Source of the DNA: Chrysochromulina tobinii
Lineage: Eukaryota > Haptophyta > Prymnesiales > Chrysochromulinaceae
Direction: 5' to 3'
DNA: 20,432 nucleotides
NCBI GenBank assembly: GCA_001275005.1
Contig: JWZX01002547.1
Location: forward strand, 1-20,432
Shown here: in pieces, positions 6,697 to 20,432 of the stretch
Position numbering within the stretch: position 1 is the first letter of the stretch
Layout: every line of letters begins with the position of its first letter
The notes under the pieces: model-generated
Databases searched by the model: none
Told to the model about the DNA's origin: nothing
Seen by the model: only the letters and a program-made list of their open reading frames with translations
Translations under genes and position numbers: made by a program

Positions 6697-7460
6697 CGAT
6701 TCCCACCGAGGCTGTCGCCGAAGGCGCCGCCGTGAGTTCCACTCGCGCCACTCGCGCGCCGCACACGCACCTAGAGTACTGCTGCGGGCGTCACATGCGG
6801 ATCGCATAAGTCAACCTCGTGGCGCGCCGTCCTAGACGACTCGCGCCGATTACCTGGCGGCTGGTTCGTTTCCTCATCAAGGGCGTCGCTGAGGGCGCCA
6901 CCGTGAGCTCGACCCGCGCGCCGCACACGCATCTCGAATGCGACTGCGGGCGACGCATGCTGATTGCATACGTCGACCTGGTGGCGCGCCATACCGAGCG
7001 ACGCGCGCCGATCACCCTGCGGTTCGTTTTTCCTCATCAAAGGCTTTACCGAAGGCGCCGCCGAGAGCTCGACTCGCGCGCCGCACACGCACCTAGAGTA
7101 CTGCTGCGGGCGACACATGCTGATCGCACACGTCGACCTAGTGGCGCGCCGTTTTAGACGACGCACGCCGATTACCTGGCGGCTGGTTCGTTTCCCTCAT
7201 CAAGGGCGTCGCCGAGGGCGCCGCCGTGAGCTCGACCCGCGCGCCGCACACGCATCTCGAATGCGACTGCGGGCGACGCATGCTGATTGCATACGTCGAC
7301 CTGGTGGCGCGCCATACCGAGTGACGCGCGCGCCGATCACCCTGCGGTTCGATTCCTCAACAAAGGCTTCATCGAAGGCGCCGCCGTGAGCTCGACTCGC
7401 GCGCCGCACACGCACCTCGAAGCTGCCGCGGGCGACACATGCGGATCGCATACGTCCTCC
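6697..7460. repeat. ~161-bp tandem repeat with a two-monomer (~323-bp) higher-order structure
   Basis: The anchor CGCGCGCCGCACACGCA occurs at 6753, 6915, 7075, 7238 and 7398, spacings 162, 160, 163 and 160. Monomers at 6753 and 7075 share CTAGAGTACTGCTGCGGGCG and GATTACCTGGCGGCTGGTTCG. Those at 6915 and 7238 share CTCGAATGCGACTGCGGG and GATCACCCTGCGGTTCG and are nearly identical for ~110 bp. Every second monomer is therefore much more alike than neighbours. A last partial monomer ends near 7460. The array abuts the 81-bp array, and 161 is close to twice 81, so the two may share ancestry. Confidence 0.85.
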
Positions 7461-9834: not shown

Positions 9835-12800
9835 ATGCAAGCCAAACGTTTTGGAAGTTGTCGCGCTGCTCATTGCGCCTCCTTTTCGCAATTGCAAAAT
9901 CTGTCGATGCCGGCCGCGGCACATAATGACTCGAAGGAGTGGGCTCCAACGGTCCAAACAGCTGGTACTCGACCTCGAGCCCTCACGGGAGACTCTGTCG
10001 TCGCAGTCACAGAAGAGACGGACACGGAAGCGAGGAAGCCGGCTGAAAAGCCGAAGGAGCCCATGAGGCATGAGATGCGCGTCATCGTGCGCGTGCGGCC
10101 GGCGGGCAAGACGGAGATCATCCATACGAGCTGCGACAGTAACGTGGGCGATTGGCTGCACGTGGACAAGCCGGAACCGACGGATGAGAAGTTTTCAACC
10201 GTGCTGGGCATGAAGTGCACGCAGCACGAGTGCTACATGGCCTGCGGCCCACCGATGATCGCCTCGGCGCTCAAAGGGCGCAATTCGTTGTTGTTTGCGT
10301 ATGGCCAGTCGGGCGCGGGCAAGACGTTCTCCATGTACGGCGCCGAGGGCGGCAAGAACCCGTCGAAGCTGGATGGCGTCGTGCCCGCGACTATCGCCGA
10401 GCTGTTTCGTCAAACCACAGCCATCGAAAAGGAGAAGGTCGGCAGCGTCAAGTATGCGCTCGGCGCGAGCCTGGTCGAGGTGCAAAATAAGTGGATCTTC
10501 GACCTGCTGCAAGACGCGGAGGAGAACGGCAACCAGCCGGCGATCCGCGCCCTTGGTCCGCACTTGATCGGGAACAAGATCGAGCGCATTTACTCGAGCC
10601 GCTCGCTGACGCACACGATCGAGCGCGGCATGCGGACGCGCGCGACGTCGCCCAATATCATGCACAAGCACAGCAGCCGCTCCCACTGCATTCTCATGCT
10701 ACTCCTCGAGCGGCGCGAGTGCAACCTGTTTGCGACCAAGGAGGAGAAGGACACCGGCCGAGATCTGATCGACTCATCGATGTGCTCGTTTTACATGGTC
10801 GACCTCGCCGGCAGCGAGGCGTTCAATTACGAGACGGAGGAGAAGCACCACGTGCATCATCGGGGCATCAACGCAGGGCTGCTTGCGCTTGGGCGCGTCA
10901 TCATGGCGATGAGCGACCGGCAAGAGCACGTGCCCTATCGGGACAGCGTCATCACGCAGCTCCTCCTCGGAGCTCTCGGTGGCGACAAGCCTTGCCTCAC
11001 GGAAATGCTCTGCTGTCTCTCACCCTCGTCTGCGCATGCGGCCGACACGAAGTGCTCGATCTCGTACGCCAAACGGTGCGCGCTGCTCGAGAGGGAGAAT
11101 GCCGTCGACGAGGTCGATGAGACCGAAGCCGAGGTTGCTGATGAGAAGGAGGGCGAAGCCGTCGCGAAGGAGAAGCAACTGGGCCATCCCGCCAACTCGC
11201 CGATGGCCAACGACGAATTCGATGAAGATGAGGAGGCGAATCGGCGTTGCGAGCTCATTGAGATCAAGGCAGGTGGCGTGTTCGCACGCACGTCGGGCGA
11301 TCCGACGAACCCGCTTGTGCTCTATTTGCACGACGGCTCGAGCTCGAGTGCCAATTCAGCCACGTGGAACCCCCTCGTGACCGCCCTCTCTCTCGCCAAG
11401 CGTGAGTCCTTCAAGCTGCTCAAGGCGGCCAAAGACGCCCAGAAGGCCAGCAAGGCGGGCAGCGCGTCCAAGAGCAAGAAGGGCGCGGAGGGCGCGAAGG
11501 CGTCTGGCAGCAGCGCGGCGGCAGCAGCTGCGCAGGCGGCGGCGGTTTCAGCATCGGCGCAGGGTGCGGAAGACGACGCCGAGGACGTTGAGTTTGACGA
11601 CCGCTTTGCTGTGCTTCGTGGAAAGCTCTCGAAGGCGTTGCAGCGGCGGCAGAAGGAGATCATGCAGACGCTGTGCTCATTGTGCCAATCGCTGCTGCTC
11701 GACCCGACGCGCCTCACCCGCTGCCGCCACGTGCTCTGTCGCTTGTGTGTGGAGCGATCCATCTTCTATCACCGCGAGTGTCCCGTGTGCGCGACGCCGT
11801 GCGGGCCGCCCGAGACCGACGCGGAGCATGACGCGGTGATGCGGCTGCGCATGCGCAGGACCTTCCGCAACGAGCCCGTGATGTCCACCGTGTGGAAGGC
11901 GCGGCTGGAGGAGCAGCAGTTGGAACGGCGGACCTCGATGCGCGTGGTCTTGGAGTATGGCTCGATCCTTGCGAGCGATAGCAAGCGCACCAAGGCGACG
12001 ATGTTTGTGGGCGTGCTCAAGGACGCGCGCGGCACGCCTGTCCACCGCGGTGAGGAGTGCGTTCAGACGCAGGGCGCGACGATCGCGCAGCTCATCCACT
12101 GCGTGTCGTGTGACTATCACCCGAGCTCAGACGAGGATACACTGATGACGCTTAATGAGCCCAATAACACCTCGGACGAACGCTTCGGCTACACGTTCAC
12201 GCGCCCGATGTCAGCGGGCTCCTTGTGCCACATGACCGTGCACTGGGCGAGTGAGATTAGCGTGGCGCCCCTCGAGATTCGGCACAAACTCGGGCGCGTG
12301 CCTGTCGGCCGCTTCACGCGTCGCATCGTCGTGCAGTTCCCCGCGGAGCTTCCAGTGCTGCGCGAAGGCGCGGCCACCACGACGCCCACCTCCTTTGCGG
12401 AGCGGCGCTCGAAAGAGCTCTCGGGCTGGGTGCACTACACTGACGCCGCCACGGCCAAGGCGGTCGGGGCGAGCGCGCGCGTCCTCGTCGGCGCTTGGAG
12501 CGGCGGGAGCAAGGCGTGTGGAGATATCATCCTAACGTCGGGCAACGTCAAGGAGGCACGGATGGCGATTACTTCGGCAGAGTCGAACCGCGCTGCGGTG
12601 GAGTACGTTGGCATGATTGGCGAGGCAAATCTCGCGTTGTGCTTGGCCGCGAGCGAGGGGCTGCCCCTCAAGAGTGCCACCGCCAAAGCGGACGCGATCG
12701 CTCCCTTGAAAAAGGCGCGCAAGAAGGCGATCCTTGAGCGCAAGAAAGCTAGCAGCGCCGTGGCGCTGGCCGGAGTCACCGATGGGGACTCGCCCAAAGG

Positions 12801-14373
12801 GCTTCGGAGCGGTGGCTCGGCGTCGCCTGGGCGCCACAGCTCCGCAATCTCGCCGGCCCGAGGTGCAATCTCGCCGACCCGAGGTGCAATCTCGCCGGGC
12901 CGAGGTCAGCCGGCCTTACCCGGCCGCCCACGCCCCCCCACTTCGCCCACTCAGCAGCCCTCCCCTGGCTTCATGAATGGGTCGTCCGGCATCGCCATCG
13001 AGACGCCCCTGTCCATGGCAGCGGCGCCGATTCAGTCATGCGCGCCGGGAGGAAGTCTTGTAGGAAGTGGTGGAGGTGGCGCCTTCAGGCAGCAAACCTC
13101 CACAAGTTGTGAGCCTTCGTCCCGTTCTCCACGCAGCGAGCCGCCACCAGCTAGCAGCCACAAGCCTCGCCGCCCGATCTCAGCGCGAGGCTCCTCCGCG
13201 TCCCCTTCGTCGTCTCGAGGCATGTATAGCGCACGCACGTATGTGCCACGCCCTATCATGCCAGGCTCCAACGGATCGCGCTCCGCCCGGCGGCAGCGGT
13301 CGCCGCGCCGCGCGGAGTCGCCGCTCGGCGGCTGCAGTGGCAGCAGTGCCGGTGGCGATGGCAGCAGAAGCGGTGGCGGCGGTGGCGGCAGCAACAGCGG
13401 TGCCAGCAGCAGCCGCAGCGGGCGCTCCTCTGCAGACAAGGGTGTGCACGCCGCCCGCCGCGCCTCGTACGACAAGGAGGAGCCGAGCGATTCCGAAGAT
13501 ATGGGGGCGTCTCTCCTTCTCAAGTCAGCCTCGTCCGCTTCAGACACGACATTCGTTCTGCTCTACGACAAGATGCTGGCCCTCATCGGGCCGAGCGCAC
13601 CGCCCCATGCGCGCGCCGGCTTCCTCGACGAGCTCAACATGGCCGGGCACGGCTTTGACGAGCCGGCCGAGTTCTTTCACGTGGCGATCGACTTGCCCGG
13701 CTTCGGAAATACGAAGGCATCGATGCAGACCCTCAAGCGCGGCGCCGAGGAGAAACGCGTCGCCGACGAAGGAGCCGTCATGTCCCCCGAATTCATCGTT
13801 GAGGTGATCAAGAGCCTGGGCAAGCACTACGCCTACTGCATCGTGACTTCCGCTGAGTGTAGCGCCAGCGTCTTCTCGGCGCTGCTCGAGCGCCCCAATC
13901 TCGCCTCGTTCTTAGTGCTCAAGGAGCCGCAAGTCAAGGACTACGACGCGCTGCACTCGATCTTTCAGCCGACCCTGATCTTATCAGAGAGCCGACAGGC
14001 GGCATCCACGGATAGAATTGAACAAGCGCTCATGAACAACTCCATCATCGAGTTCAGCAAGAAGACGAACCCCAGCTACATCGTCAAGGATGCTTCAAAG
14101 GACATTCTCGCCTGGATGAAAGGCCGCAAGTGGCGAGGCCACCTGTCCGGATTTGGGCACTCGAAGATGCGCCCGCTGCTCACTCGCCTCGTCGGCGGCG
14201 TGCGCATGTGGAGTGGCGTGCGCGAGTATAGGCCCTCGCCCATCATCGATGCCACGCCCGCCGCCACGAGGGACAAGGAGGGCGCTGGGGGAGGGAAGCC
14301 GGAGCACGACCCCAAGGCTAGAAGGGCCGAAAGCCCACCAAGAGAGAGCGATACGAAAGAGGACATATATTAG
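9835..14373 (+). CDS. Kinesin motor - RING finger - alpha/beta-hydrolase-like fusion protein
   Basis: One uninterrupted frame of 1512 codons. Residues ~80-425 are a kinesin motor: VIVRVRP at 83, P-loop GQSGAGKT at 157-164, switch I SSRSH at 280-284, switch II DLAGSE at 323-328, then INAGLLALGRVI and VPYRDSVITQLL. An acidic segment and an Ala/Lys-rich segment follow. Residues 614-652 form a C3HC4 RING finger (C614, C617, C630, H632, C635, C638, C649, C652), typical of E3 ubiquitin ligases. Residues ~690-960 look folded but I do not recognise them. Residues ~975-1225 are Ser/Gly/Arg-rich and disordered. Residues ~1238-1445 resemble an alpha/beta-hydrolase (FHVAIDLPGFG at 1280, strand-helix YCIVTSAECSAS at 1334, then FQPTLILSES), but the GxSxG elbow is absent. 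M25 or M77 are alternative starts. Expected role: ATP-driven microtubule binding with possible ubiquitin transfer; both are inferred from motifs. Confidence 0.85.
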   Translation: MQAKRFGSCRAAHCASFSQLQNLSMPAAAHNDSKEWAPTVQTAGTRPRALTGDSVVAVTEETDTEARKPAEKPKEPMRHEMRVIVRVRPAGKTEIIHTSCDSNVGDWLHVDKPEPTDEKFSTVLGMKCTQHECYMACGPPMIASALKGRNSLLFAYGQSGAGKTFSMYGAEGGKNPSKLDGVVPATIAELFRQTTAIEKEKVGSVKYALGASLVEVQNKWIFDLLQDAEENGNQPAIRALGPHLIGNKIERIYSSRSLTHTIERGMRTRATSPNIMHKHSSRSHCILMLLLERRECNLFATKEEKDTGRDLIDSSMCSFYMVDLAGSEAFNYETEEKHHVHHRGINAGLLALGRVIMAMSDRQEHVPYRDSVITQLLLGALGGDKPCLTEMLCCLSPSSAHAADTKCSISYAKRCALLERENAVDEVDETEAEVADEKEGEAVAKEKQLGHPANSPMANDEFDEDEEANRRCELIEIKAGGVFARTSGDPTNPLVLYLHDGSSSSANSATWNPLVTALSLAKRESFKLLKAAKDAQKASKAGSASKSKKGAEGAKASGSSAAAAAAQAAAVSASAQGAEDDAEDVEFDDRFAVLRGKLSKALQRRQKEIMQTLCSLCQSLLLDPTRLTRCRHVLCRLCVERSIFYHRECPVCATPCGPPETDAEHDAVMRLRMRRTFRNEPVMSTVWKARLEEQQLERRTSMRVVLEYGSILASDSKRTKATMFVGVLKDARGTPVHRGEECVQTQGATIAQLIHCVSCDYHPSSDEDTLMTLNEPNNTSDERFGYTFTRPMSAGSLCHMTVHWASEISVAPLEIRHKLGRVPVGRFTRRIVVQFPAELPVLREGAATTTPTSFAERRSKELSGWVHYTDAATAKAVGASARVLVGAWSGGSKACGDIILTSGNVKEARMAITSAESNRAAVEYVGMIGEANLALCLAASEGLPLKSATAKADAIAPLKKARKKAILERKKASSAVALAGVTDGDSPKGLRSGGSASPGRHSSAISPARGAISPTRGAISPGRGQPALPGRPRPPTSPTQQPSPGFMNGSSGIAIETPLSMAAAPIQSCAPGGSLVGSGGGGAFRQQTSTSCEPSSRSPRSEPPPASSHKPRRPISARGSSASPSSSRGMYSARTYVPRPIMPGSNGSRSARRQRSPRRAESPLGGCSGSSAGGDGSRSGGGGGGSNSGASSSRSGRSSADKGVHAARRASYDKEEPSDSEDMGASLLLKSASSASDTTFVLLYDKMLALIGPSAPPHARAGFLDELNMAGHGFDEPAEFFHVAIDLPGFGNTKASMQTLKRGAEEKRVADEGAVMSPEFIVEVIKSLGKHYAYCIVTSAECSASVFSALLERPNLASFLVLKEPQVKDYDALHSIFQPTLILSESRQAASTDRIEQALMNNSIIEFSKKTNPSYIVKDASKDILAWMKGRKWRGHLSGFGHSKMRPLLTRLVGGVRMWSGVREYRPSPIIDATPAATRDKEGAGGGKPEHDPKARRAESPPRESDTKEDIY
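12844..12906 (+). repeat. Three 21-bp tandem repeats in the kinesin linker
   Basis: Units start at 12844, 12865 and 12886 and differ by one or two bases. They encode AISPxRG three times, a Ser-Pro/Arg-Gly spacer in the disordered part of the kinesin-RING protein. SP sites could be targets of proline-directed kinases. Confidence 0.85.
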
Positions 14374-15944: not shown

Positions 15945-18900
15945 ATGCTGCAGCGGCTGAGTGGTAGCCATTCGGCGCGGCCTCATAGGCCAGGCTACGG
16001 TGAGCCCGACTTGCTGTCCGTCCGTCCGTCAACCAGCTCTCCGCGAGCGCGACATGACAAGGAGATGCTCGACACGTTGAACACGATCAGCCAGTCGAGC
16101 TCCTTTTACTCGCCGCCTCGGAAGGGTGGCCGCACGAGCTCTGAGACGGGCAGGCAGCTGGGCACCTCCTACTTTTTGCCCGCACTCGATGCCAATGGCA
16201 CTCTGATGGAGTTGGAGCCGAGCGCTCTCAAGTCGGGATTATTCTCGCCTGAGCTCAACGGTGTGAGCGCAGCCTCCAAGTCGCCGTACCTGGATGGCGG
16301 CACGAGTGACCTGCGGAAGAAGATCGGGCAGCTCGAGCTCGAGATCAGCCGGTTGCGAGCTTCGCTCGACAAGAAGGTCCACACCATCCGCCGGCTCGAG
16401 GAGCGCGAGGTCTCGCGACAGTACGAGGACGATGTCATCAAGGCGCGGCTGACGCAGCAGTGGCAGGCCGAGCTGGAGCGCACGCGGCAAGAGCTGGAAG
16501 CCAAATACAGGCACGAGCTCGCCGGCGCGCGTCACAAGTCGCAGGACGAAGTAGCGACGGTCGCGAGCTCATGGGAGGAGGAGGTGGCGAGGCGCGAGGC
16601 CAAGGAGAAGGAGGCGCGCATCGAGCTGCTCCGTCGTCAGGTCGCACGGCGCATGAAGAACAGTGACTTGGCGCGCGGCTTCACCGCTTGGAACGACCTG
16701 TGGAAGGAGCGCACGCGCGTCCAGCAGCTGCTGCGGCAGGCGGCGGCGCGGCTGACCAAGCCCGCACTTTCGCACGCCTACCTAGTTTGGAAATTGGATT
16801 GGGACGAGAAGGTCAAGGCGGACTTGAAGGCGGCGCGGGATGAGTTTGAGAGCTCGCTGCTCACGGATAAGGAACGTCTCCAAATCGAGCTGCAGAAGAT
16901 GCGCGACGAATGCGAGCGAAAGCTCACGAGCCTCCAGCTGGTGCACGAGCAGGAGATGGCGGAGATGCGGATCGCCGCGTTTGGCAGCGCTGAGGAGCAG
17001 GCTCGGCAGAGGGATCTCAAGGAGAAGGAGGCGCGCATCGCGCTATACCGTCGCAAGGTGACGCGTCGCATCATATGAACTCCGCCAGCTGTCTGATTGC
17101 CTCTTGATTGCCACTGATGGGCTGTCTGATTGCCTCCCTCATCAGGTGACGCGCCGCATCATGAACTCCGACCTCGCGCGTGGCTGGACGGCATGGGTTG
17201 AGACGTGGGAGGCGCGCATCCACAGCCGCCGGCTGCTGCAGAGCGCGGCGAGCCGCCTCACGAAGCCGGTGCTGAGCAGCGCGTTTGGCTATTGGCGCAC
17301 CGACTGGAGGGACACGGAGAGGGAGCAGGCGGAGAGGACCAATCGCGAGCTCGCCGAGAAGCTGCAGCAGCGGCAGCTGGATGCCGAGCAGGAGCTCACC
17401 GAGCAGCGGCAGCTCCATGCCCAGGAGCTTGCGGCGATGAGCGCAAAGCACACTCATGACCTCGAGAGGCTTCGGGTGGAGCTGACCGGTACGGCCGAGG
17501 AGCGCGAGGCGATGCGAGACGCGCGCGAGCGCGACGAGCGTGTCGAGCTGCTTCGCCGGCAGGTGACGCGGCGCATGCTGAACGCGGACCTCTCGCGCGG
17601 CTGGACGGCGTGGTTTGCGATGTGGGACGCGCGCCGGCGCAGCAAGCAGCGCTTGCAGCAAGCAGCGAGCCGGCTCGTTCGCCCGCTGCTGACCGCGGCG
17701 TACTTGTACTGGCGCACGGACTGGAGGGCAGCTTACGAGCGCGCGGCCGCGGCGGAGCGTCAGAAGGGACTCTCGGAGCTCCAGAAACGCAACGTTGAGC
17801 TCGAGGAGGAACTGCGTGAGGTGCGGGAGGCCGCCAAAAAGAGCCTGGCAGAGATGGCGGCGAAGTGCGACGTGGCCATGGCGCGGCTGCGGATCGAGCT
17901 GACGGGCTCCTTGGCGGAGCAGGCGGCGGTGCGCGAGGAGCGCGAGAAGGAGGCGCGCGTCGAGCTGCTCCGCCGTCAGAGCGCGCGGCGGATCGCGAAC
18001 GCCGAGCTCTCACGCGGCTGGTCCACGTGGAAGCTCGGCTGGCAGGCGCGTGTGGACAGGCGCCGAATGATCAAGGGTGCTGCGATGCGCATGATGAAGC
18101 CCTTGCTCTTAAGCGCATACGGCTTCTGGAAGCACGACTGGGACAGCAAGCAGCGCAGCCTACAGGAGGCGGCGCGCTCGGCGGAGACGGGGAAGCTGCT
18201 CACCCGACAGCAGGAGCTTGAGAGGGCCCTCAGTGCGAAGGATGCGGAGTGGGAGGCGAAGCTCGAGCGGATGCGAGAGCAGCAGAAGGAGGCGCTGGAG
18301 AACCAGCGTATTGCTCTCGTGGGCACTGCTGAGGAACGGATGGCGTACGCGAAGTCCAAGGATAAGGAGGCGCGCGTCGAGCAGCTCCGACGTCAAGTCG
18401 CGCGGCGCATGATCCACAAAGAGCTCGCGCGCGGCTGGACTGCTTGGGTGGCGAAGCGAGCGGCATTGGCCAAGAAGAAGCAGATGCTCAAGCAGGCGGC
18501 GGCTCGGCTGACGCGCCCGGCGCTGTCGGCCTCGTACCGGTACTGGCTCAAGGACTTCCAAGAGGCGACCAAGGCCGATGATGCACGGCGGCAGCGGCGC
18601 GAGCTGGACGCCTTGGAGGTGCAGCTCTCGGAGAGCATGTACAGGGTGCACGAGCTCAACATGGTACGTGTCGCGCACGAGGACGAGATCGAGGCGCTCA
18701 AGGCGAAGCTACGGCACTCCGAGGAGGAGGTGCGCACGCAGGAGTCCACAGTGACGGACTTGCGGCCCAGATGCATGCAGCAGGCGTCGCAGATTGTCAA
18801 TCTCGAGGCGGAGCTCGAATCGGCCAAGAATGCGGCGCGCGATGCGGAGCGAGAGCGCGACGTGGCGCGCGAGCAGGCGCGCACGCAGCACGATGCGAAT

Positions 18901-19713
18901 GAGGCGCTGCTCGCGCGCCTGCTTGCCGAGCAGCGTGCGACGTTCGAGCTCGAGCTGCGCGAGCTCAAAGAGGCTCACTCGACGATGCTCGGCGAGAGGA
19001 TCGGGGCGCTCGAGTCCGAGTTACGGGCGGAATCGGAGCAGCTGCTCGAGGTTCGTCAGGCCCAGCTCGAGACGCAGGAGAGGCTACGCCTCGAGAGCGA
19101 CGGCCGCTCGCAGGTGGAGGCCGAGCTTGGCACGACGCGCGAGAAGCTCGACGTGACGATCGGTACGCTCGAGGAGCGCAAGGCGGATATCTGATGACCT
19201 CTGATGATCACTGATGACCCATGATTGCCTCCCTTATCAGGTACGCTCGAGGAGCGCAAGGCGGAGCTGTCTCAACTGCATCGGACGGTCGGAGATTTAA
19301 ATCTCGCCCTCTCCGAGAAGGATCGGCAGATTCATAGCCTCGAGAGTCAGATTCCGAAGAAGAAGGAGCCGCCGCCCAAGCCGAAGGGCTCGTCGGGCGT
19401 CCTCGGCGCCATCGACCTCGACGAAGGGCCCGACGCGCCGCCGATCTCGGAGCAGATCGCCAGCGCCCTTCGGTCGGGGGCCGGTCGTGTCCTCGACCTG
19501 TTCCGTGAGTGGGACGCTGACGGCGACGGCGAGATCTCCCGCAAGGAGTTCCACAAGGCCATGCCCGCGCTCGGGCTCGAGGTGCCCAAGGCGGACGTCG
19601 ACAAGCTCTTCGACGAGTGGGGCGGCGGCGATGGCACGATCACCTACAAGGAGATGAGCCAGATTTTGAAAGCGAAGCCGAAGCCGAGGGTCCCGATGCC
19701 TGCCAAAAAGTGA
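15945..19713 (+). CDS. Trp-repeat (Sfi1-like) coiled-coil protein with C-terminal EF-hands
   Basis: Three exons, 15945-17057, 17146-19162 and 19241-19713, give 1200 residues. The ATG at 15945 is the first in frame after a stop at 15861 and has A at -3. Residues 1-120 are Ser/Pro-rich; a coiled coil begins at ~122. Five repeats of 138-140 residues start near residues 223, 362, 502, 640 and 779; each has a basic RRQVxRRM helix, LARGWTAW, then Lxxx-P-LxxAYxYWxxDW about 35 residues on, then coiled coil. Paired Trp at this spacing resembles Sfi1/centrin-binding repeats, but I assign this by pattern only. Residues ~860-1080 are coiled coil. An EF-hand pair follows: loop 1135-1146 (DADGDGEISRKE) is canonical, while loop 1170-1181 starts with Trp and keeps only part of the Ca2+ ligands. 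Likely a structural, Ca2+-responsive protein of centrin-type fibres or basal bodies; this is inference. Confidence 0.8.
16611..18660 (+). repeat. Five tandem ~417-bp coding repeats
   Basis: Repeat starts, taken at the GAG of the EAR-[IV]-E-LLRRQ word, are 16611, 17028, 17536, 17950 and 18367. Spliced unit lengths are 417, 420, 414 and 417 bp (139, 140, 138 and 139 codons). The fifth unit keeps the two Trp motifs and then diverges into a longer coiled coil near 18620-18660. DNA similarity is highest over the Trp helices and low over the linking coil. Confidence 0.85.
17058..17145 (+). other. Intron 1 (88 bp) of the Trp-repeat gene, with flanking duplication
   Basis: Phase 0, AAG|GTGACG to CCTCATCAG|GTGACG. 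Removal is required: 88 is not a multiple of three and a TGA follows in frame, while splicing joins RRK to VTRRIMNSDLARGW exactly as the repeat register predicts. The first ~27 bases of the intron are a near copy of the exon that follows (17057-17084 versus 17145-17170; one substitution and a 2-base insertion). Inside, GCTGTCTGATTGCCTC occurs twice, at 17088-17103 and 17121-17136. Confidence 0.85.
19163..19240 (+). other. Intron 2 (78 bp) of the Trp-repeat gene, with perfect flanking duplication
   Basis: Phase 1, ATCG|GTACGC to CCTTATCAG|GTACGC. Unspliced, a TGA at 19192-19194 would end the protein before the EF-hands. A 26-bp block at 19162-19187 is repeated without change at 19240-19265, so the intron opens with a copy of the next exon. 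The core is a run of CTGATGA words, and its last 19 bases differ from those of intron 1 at one position. Confidence 0.85.
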
Positions 19714-20185: not shown

Positions 20186-20432
20186 ATGCTGCCACCTCCA
20201 TCAGCGCCGTCACCGCCCTCGCCGCCGCCTTCACCACCGCCGCCCTCGCCACCACCACCATCCTCCGCCGCCCTCTCCTCCGCCGCCCTCACCACCGTCC
20301 ACCTTCTCCACCGCCGCCGTCGCCGCCGCCATCACCGCCACCCCCATCAGCCGCCACCACCTTCACCACCACCACCCTCACCACCGCCACCCTCGCCACC
20401 ACCCTCCCCGACACCCTCGCCGCCACCACCCT
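20186..20432 (+). repeat. CCN low-complexity tract, possible start of a Ser/Pro-rich gene
   Basis: From ~20190 to the window end the plus strand is almost only CCN, GCC, TCN and CAC triplets. From an ATG at 20186 frame 2 stays open to the edge and reads Ser-Pro3/Ser-Pro4 blocks at both ends (20201-20263 and 20351-20432), as in hydroxyproline-rich, pherophorin-like wall proteins of algae. The middle reads as Ala/Leu/His/Arg in this frame, and Ser-Pro there falls in another frame, so a simple-sequence repeat is at least as likely as a gene. Confidence 0.45.

Follow-up and report, generated by a model that had tools for sequence, protein, structure and literature searches.

Thousands of short introns in Chrysochromulina tobinii look copied from existing introns into coding regions, with duplication of about 25 bases of the target

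The haptophyte Chrysochromulina tobinii contains thousands of short introns that look copied from existing introns into coding regions, duplicating about 25 bases of the target. Two of them interrupt a gene for a coiled-coil/EF-hand protein in a stretch of 20,432 nucleotides, the whole of contig JWZX01002547.1 of assembly GCA_001275005.1 (here contig C1396, hereafter the window). The family is real, very large and carries an unusually informative birth mark. We hold with high confidence that new introns were copied from old ones with long target duplications.

The window gene lies on the forward strand. Exon 1 (15945..17057, its start, the first in-frame ATG, being uncertain) is followed by intron 1 (17058..17145, 88 nt, GTGACG...CATCAG), exon 2 (17146..19162), intron 2 (19163..19240, 78 nt, GTACGC...TATCAG) and exon 3 (19241..19713), which has an EF-hand at its end. 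Both introns open with a copy of the exon sequence downstream of them, as a sequence-only reading of the window had noted. For intron 2 the repeat is exact over 26/26 bp, with a first copy bearing the 5′ splice site (19162..19187) and a second, coding copy (19240..19265). The copies of intron 1 are placed in the same way (17058..17084, with the 5′ splice site, and 17146..17170, coding); the single substitution and 2-base indel reported earlier stand, but the lengths are now 29 and 27 nt instead of 28 and 26, with 26/29 columns identical. The remainder of each intron is a core (17085..17145 and 19188..19240), that of intron 2 containing a CTGATGACC-type repeat spaced 10 nt, and CTGAT words within the cores are plausible branch points. 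As had also been noticed, the two introns end in nearly the same 19 nt, TGATTGCCTCCCTCATCAG at 17127..17145 and TGATTGCCTCCCTTATCAG at 19222..19240, for which the common form is TGATTGCCTCCCTYATCAG. At three mismatches or fewer this 19-mer occurs twice in the window against an expectation of 0.01, a count reached in 0/100 shuffles. The cores themselves represent different subfamilies sharing a 3′ end, as their nearest relatives differ. Intron 2 alone looks young, its duplication being intact. The suggestion that both introns are recent insertions of one family is thus upheld for the shared 3′ end, but recency applies to intron 2 only, the duplication of intron 1 having diverged.

Removal of both introns yields a single open frame of 1,224 codons from 15873 with the EF-hand at its end, whereas the unspliced translation of the same stretch contains 18 stop codons. 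Junction 1 falls inside a repeat unit that recurs elsewhere in the window protein, and this homology backs its position: the spliced protein matches repeat units in 65/70 listed proteins, and 227/280 local alignments spanning the junction are gap-free. For junction 2, in the coiled coil, no independent homologue was found, because its sole match, P0121, itself ends inside intron 2. P0121 is a 696-aa open reading frame (ORF) from the protein database, 99% identical and representative of a cluster of 111 sequences; it starts in intron 1, and since its two ends fall in the two introns, both must be present in that other sequence. The EF-hand protein also has a named match in the Chrysochromulina OHIO genome. 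The earlier statement that splicing restores the coding sequence therefore holds for the frame and for junction 1, and at junction 2 it goes as far as the frame.

A second gene behaves alike. The Lon gene (contig C289) holds several introns of the family, and five of its exons were joined at splice sites picked by eye, 3/4 of the removed regions being compound (a unit plus further intron sequence). The joined exons give 157 residues of the Lon AAA+ domain, aligned to PDB 8k3y gap-free at 4/4 junctions and with one single-residue gap elsewhere. As their removal restores frame and domain in Lon and the window gene alike, these regions appear to behave as spliceosomal introns. A reading of them as coding repeats or assembly errors could appeal to the want of RNA evidence for their removal; it is barely credible given the restored frames and domain, the P0121 ORF ending inside both introns and the existence of an uninserted paralogue.

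Across the genome (53.15 Mb, 2,253 contigs) the 19-mer was found in 3,729 copies at two mismatches or fewer (1,823 forward and 1,906 reverse), against 0 matches for the reversed pattern. The 3′ motif had 0 exact matches in viral contigs, among which records near this genome may be excluded. The sample examined comprised eight loci from the 19-mer search, 20 stretches of up to 10 kb from contigs with exact copies, five loci from core-similarity matches and 20 regions each from lists of 61 and 47 places, these last taken from the upper part of the lists with some skipped; three loci overlapping others were excluded from counts. The sample is biased towards CATCAG-ended copies because it was picked by 3′ end or core similarity. 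Downstream exon sequence was matched upstream with a score of at least 12 at 114/185 ends, compared with 9/185 when the partner came from another locus, and with a score of at least 20 at 85 ends against 1 control. When the repeat start was left free (score of at least 14), 67/123 ends with clean downstream sequence were duplicated against 0/123 controls, and 61/67 of these repeats began at −3 to 0 of the CAG end, the end by which the sample was chosen. The sequence-only reading would have failed had no other intron shared the 3′ core or the flanking duplication; evidently many share both. At least four similar introns thus stand at different sites of one genome, as is expected of introners.

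Once array-like and multi-core cases had been dropped, 71 single-core cases of 237 distinct ends remained. Their duplications are 11–45 bp long with a median of 25 (lengths up to 45 were searched), the median core is 53 nt and the median intron 78 nt, and the duplication-flanked end is followed by GT in 58/71. An open search that allowed repeats up to 20 bp below their spacing gave a longest repeat of 49 bp among 133; a scan with no 3′-end requirement returned 243 rows of overlapping motif hits, too redundant to count. The target consensus in the 44 non-array cases was G|GTRCG (38 with the G that precedes the cut, 39 with the G after it and 36 with the T). Both copies of the duplication are still identical in 17/44 of these cases, and only 3/44 introns are shorter than about 70 nt. 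The longer the duplication, the shorter the core tends to be (Spearman −0.64; the sum of the two lengths has an interquartile range of 14, against 23 permuted, p = 0.0002), the simplest reason being that introns under about 70 nt seldom persist. Strict length-preserving copying, to which the 88 nt of intron 1 and the 89 nt of its relative on C107 might point, was rejected, as nearly the same cores differ in length at L036 (79 nt) and L038 (65 nt). A minimum spliceable length is the simpler account.

Among 39 isolated inserts with flanking duplications found without the end motif, AG|GT lay at the left end of the repeat in 18, inside it in 5 and at its right end in 2; AG|GC only was present in 4 and neither in 10, some of the latter being gapped main-class copies or unrelated repeats. 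Duplications that hold AG|GT internally, with both splice sites derived from exon, and the arrays of whole units described below would suit an origin by tandem duplication of AGGT-containing exon pieces with later growth of a CTGATTGCC microsatellite inside. However, an intron made by AGGT tandem duplication consists of duplicated exon only, and here a family core stands between the copies. Core subfamilies are moreover identical over 45–70 nt between sites that have downstream exons no more than 60% alike, and independent microsatellite growth therefore cannot explain them. We consider this origin extremely improbable.

Eighteen joined exon flanks were searched against the genome for empty sites. 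L022 (contig C201) found an uninterrupted counterpart on C2024, one coiled-coil site was matched weakly (77%) on C1206, and the remaining 16/18 returned only their own locus or nearby pieces. The C2024 paralogue is uninterrupted over 1 kb in one open frame of 335 codons, its blocks being 85–96% identical in the compared part. Over L022 2134–3514, 7/7 consecutive block boundaries overlap on the paralogue, by 9, 30, 38, 27, 32, 49 and 29 bp (two further-upstream blocks, separated by non-matching sequence, were left out). Judged by this comparison of sequences, the L022 inserts arrived with duplication of their targets, the paralogue showing the state before insertion. Unit number also differs between otherwise identical loci. 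At one and the same site C1926 has two units and C1363 one, although the flanks are identical as far as they were compared; therefore the number of units varies between near-identical sequences. Tandem arrays of 2 to 5 whole units (exon copy plus core) inside one intron were seen at L029 (C1300:4950–5500), at L031 (C1926) as compared with L032 (C1363), and at L010 and L026. In L029 the junction of the last unit differs from that of the first four.

The new point is that copies can carry exon bases of their donor with them. Introns A, B and C of Lon share CGATTACTCTGATGATGACC across the carry-over junction; at two mismatches or fewer the 20-mer spanning it has three occurrences in the genome, every one of them in Lon and inside a stretch of 431 bp. 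CGATTAC is exon copy in intron C, where the downstream exon reads GACCGATTACCTCC, and is not exon copy in A or B, except for CGA in A. The duplication of C is the more diverged (40/43 columns, against 30/30 in B and 38/39 in A), making A and B the younger and C therefore the donor. In the window, positions 17076–17145 of intron 1 are 100% identical over 70 bases to C107:2220–2289 on the reverse strand. This match takes in TGAACTCCG, a piece of exon copy in the window, and none of the other 45 listed matches reaches as far as that on C107 (scoring covered the best 40 of the 43 candidates). Window intron 1 appears to be the donor of the C107 copy. Finally, a 20-mer that joins the exon-derived GGGAGTGC of C1363/C1926 to the core is found elsewhere only in four C1300 units. 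There are thus three chains: Lon C to A and B, window intron 1 to C107, and C1363/C1926 to C1300. A systematic count gave 114 carry-overs of at least 5 nt (shuffled mean 6.8, maximum 67); it is dominated by the repetitive core, and only the three chains that were checked genome-wide are therefore claimed.

A transposon with fixed ends does not take its previous target along. As donor exon bases are carried along here, the copied unit must be a 5′-truncated intron whose 5′ end is not fixed, which sets it apart from a canonical DNA transposon, and the intron itself is therefore the best candidate for the mobile unit. A canonical introner would be a non-autonomous DNA transposon like a miniature inverted-repeat transposable element, with fixed ends and a fixed target duplication. 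Thousands of copies of one family would agree with such an element, and so would a 5′ splice site taken from the duplication with the 3′ site carried, an arrangement described for Symbiodinium introners (PMC9860276). However, the duplication varies from 11 to 45 bp, no inverted repeat of at least 12 bp joins the ends of either of the two window introns, which were the ones tested, and the 5′ end has no set position and can bring along exon bases of the donor. With the carry-over already contradicting it, this explanation is very unlikely. Core starts are spread over all positions of the repeat phase (43 cases), giving no fixed 5′ terminus; the same lack of a preferred position led us to reject a stop of copying at the branch point. 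In the copies with a duplication the first 11–45 nt are a site-specific target copy, and the similarity within 10 intronic bases of both ends by which introners are operationally defined is absent. The family works like an introner and fails the tests of a DNA-transposon introner. The view that the window introns are copies of one intron-generating element accordingly survives for the family and falls for an element with fixed ends.

Published introners offer a partial parallel. Those of the 2022 survey of Gozashti et al. also form large near-identical intron families in aquatic protists, mostly restore the coding sequence and, in the type of its Fig. 2B, take one splice site from the target duplication (PMC9860276). 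The passages of the survey on duplications quote 3–9 bp for earlier families, and its figures show examples of 4 and 8 bp (PMC9860276); against 11–45 bp here, the earlier hint that a duplication of about 26 bp points to a different mechanism is reinforced. In its Chrysochromulina example the duplications measure 4 bp and the 5′ splice site is the one carried, opposite to the present family (PMC9860276). As its methods are worded, the survey search needed similarity to begin no further than 10 intronic bases from either end, and excluded families of low complexity (PMC9860276). The present family would therefore probably be missed, and intron gain of this kind may be commoner than counted. Introner elements of Amoebophrya are likewise protist intron families with direct repeats at exon–intron borders, but the repeats are given as 3–5 nt, with inverted repeats of 8–20 nt (PMC7789003). 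The neo-introns of Daphnia, ascribed to staggered double-strand breaks, differ in having repeats of 4–12 bp and, in the account given, no proliferating core family (PMC4202315). Rogers and Bendich (2025) describe direct repeats of 4–30 bp near intron borders which they too ascribe to insertion; as reported these average 11.4 bp, are at least 70% alike and come from 213 introns of many kinds, with no donor or empty site (PMC11782384). Titles and abstract openings of the introner literature, a scope mostly outside subscription journals, described no long duplications with donor carry-over.

How the copying proceeds is less certain. We favour excised intron RNA, copied into a staggered nick, as the template, and would put the chance of this at about even. 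The sequences themselves show an insert, copied from an existing intron, that has landed in an exon with about 10–49 bp of target duplicated on both sides. In the main class the upstream copy gives the 5′ splice site and the insert the branch-point-like CTGAT repeats and the 3′ splice site CAG, and removal of the insert with the upstream copy restores the exon. The 5′ end of the insert is variable and may include the donor's exon copy, as in the three chains. The excised RNA, with its 3′-OH at the 3′ splice site, would be reverse transcribed at the nick; the second strand would be cut 15–45 nt away, the 5′ side of the cDNA closed via 1–3 nt of microhomology, and gap filling would yield the duplication, as in the insertion of long and short interspersed elements (LINEs and SINEs). 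Sites of the G|GTRCG type would persist because nowhere else would a duplication yield a functional 5′ splice site, and the duplicated exon bases of the new intron could pass to the next site. It is also possible, though we would lean slightly against it, that spliceosomal introns are themselves mobile in a general sense, with excised RNAs reverse transcribed into nicked exons of their own and other genes, no dedicated transposon, and at every birth a duplication of about 25 bp of exon that turns into the new 5′ splice site.

Retroposition of SINEs and LINEs is marked by a variable-length target duplication, variable 5′ truncation, 5′ microhomology and a defined 3′ end. The present family shows the variable duplication, a variable 5′ end and 5′ microhomology. 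Its main class would have a defined 3′ end, at CAG in 61/67 repeats of a sample chosen by that end, and a minority of inserts ends otherwise. It is unlike SINEs and LINEs in that the inserts are about 30–110 nt with no tail noticed, and what is copied would be the RNA of a spliceosomal intron after its excision. Fungal introner-like elements and stwintrons, for which reverse splicing has been modelled, also possibly have an intron-derived RNA intermediate and are co-linear with transcription (PMC3443670, PMC12403724). Reverse splicing inserts without target duplication, and in the sections concerned 288 stwintrons are given as having none found and ascomycete introners are reported without (PMC3443670, PMC12403724), unlike the inserts described here.

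The ends of the inserts bear on the choice between RNA and DNA; the stop at CAG in the main class, the mostly sense neighbours and the presence of reverse transcriptases speak for RNA. Identical cores have CAG ends also before non-GT sites (e.g. L014 4402). Similar cores showed no excess of shared downstream exon bases over shuffled ones (p = 0.26–0.53, one GT end per site), which is what a template ending at CAG would give. A signal of DNA homology at the 3′ junction (p = 0.001 at first) was gone once one GT end per site was used, and was rejected. Microhomology at the 5′ junction averaged 1.47 nt in 36 cases against 0.71 nt at random junctions (P about 0.0007), or 1.65 nt in 38 cases with the window/L010 pair included (38/71 were scorable), and fits an RNA or a DNA model; the random-junction value was used since shuffled controls (0.49 and 0.38) were too lenient. 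Three core words were counted upstream of the 237 ends 772 times in sense and 24 times in antisense, and ends less than 250 bp apart formed 570 same-strand and 22 opposite-strand ordered pairs, arrays included. The genome has 26 matches to RVT_1, 22 of them above the cut-off. Near-identical reverse transcriptase ORFs, non-LTR-like (LTR, long terminal repeat) by eye, were seen at L075 (C1050) and L076 (C1746), and their near-identity suggests a recently active retroelement.

Several points weigh against an excised-RNA template. The reverse transcriptase ORFs have no demonstrated tie to the introns, and PF14529, a LINE-type endonuclease, gave a single match just above the cut-off and on another contig. 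No poly(A) or other tail was noticed on the inserts, nor did any transcript, lariat or cDNA turn up. At least 5/39 of the isolated inserts are not CAG-ended (L012 3492, L016 5647 and L017 5919 on the reverse strand; L022 2462 and L023 1332 on the forward strand), and two L022 units within compound introns end in CATCA with the G absent; the 3′ splice site is therefore not an obligatory end. The first four of these five have AG|GT within the duplication or at its far end, which amounts to a second route to an intron from the same material. Moreover, selection for splicing can mimic the pattern, as it would also leave sense orientation and CAG ends.

Copying of DNA by microhomology is a close rival of the RNA template. 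Repair of an exon with a staggered break, or with a fork stalled in it, would switch by microhomology to the DNA of an existing intron and back, re-copying 15–45 bp of exon, with selection keeping the cases that splice. We think this could well be right, while judging it somewhat improbable. The 5′-junction microhomology suits it, and by eye the junction of several non-CAG inserts with their target seems to fall in bases that target and repeat unit have in common. The nearest core lies in the same locus (up to 10 kb) in 36/172 cases, against a mean of 9.9 and a maximum of 21 in 1,000 shuffles. The Lon donor and both recipients have GTGCTC in common past the junction, which fits a DNA or pre-mRNA template and counts against an excised one. 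So does a slight difference among pairs with similar cores, the 13 same-locus pairs sharing a mean of 3.5 exon bases and the 171 others 2.8. On the other hand, CAG ends occur even where no GT follows, there is no overall excess of exon homology between similar-core copies, antisense core words near the ends are rare, and the longest repeat of the open search is 49 bp.

Intron gain is a long-standing open question; a 2012 review states that transposition of introns via RNA was often favoured and its molecular process unknown (PMC3443670). The present births are self-recorded, as the duplication marks the cut, the paralogue shows the pre-insertion sites and the carry-over names the parent intron. 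Parentage, direction, distance and rate of intron birth can thus be counted in one genome, and such counts can separate RNA from DNA models. If mobility of intron RNA were true, this one genome would hold thousands of births with readable donor–recipient chains.

Elsewhere in the window, an uninterrupted kinesin ORF of 1,512 codons free of such introns lies at 9835–14373 on the forward strand. It has a RING-like cysteine pattern after the motor, by eye, and a named match in Prymnesium parvum (37%); P0009, a distant homologue, bears an alpha/beta-hydrolase domain. Two tandem duplications (periods 171 and 150 bp, 96–99% matches) fall within one open reading frame at 2371–2993, a tandem array with periods of 160 and 323 bp occupies 6750–7456, and CCACC-type low-complexity repeats run from 20222 to the window end at 20432.

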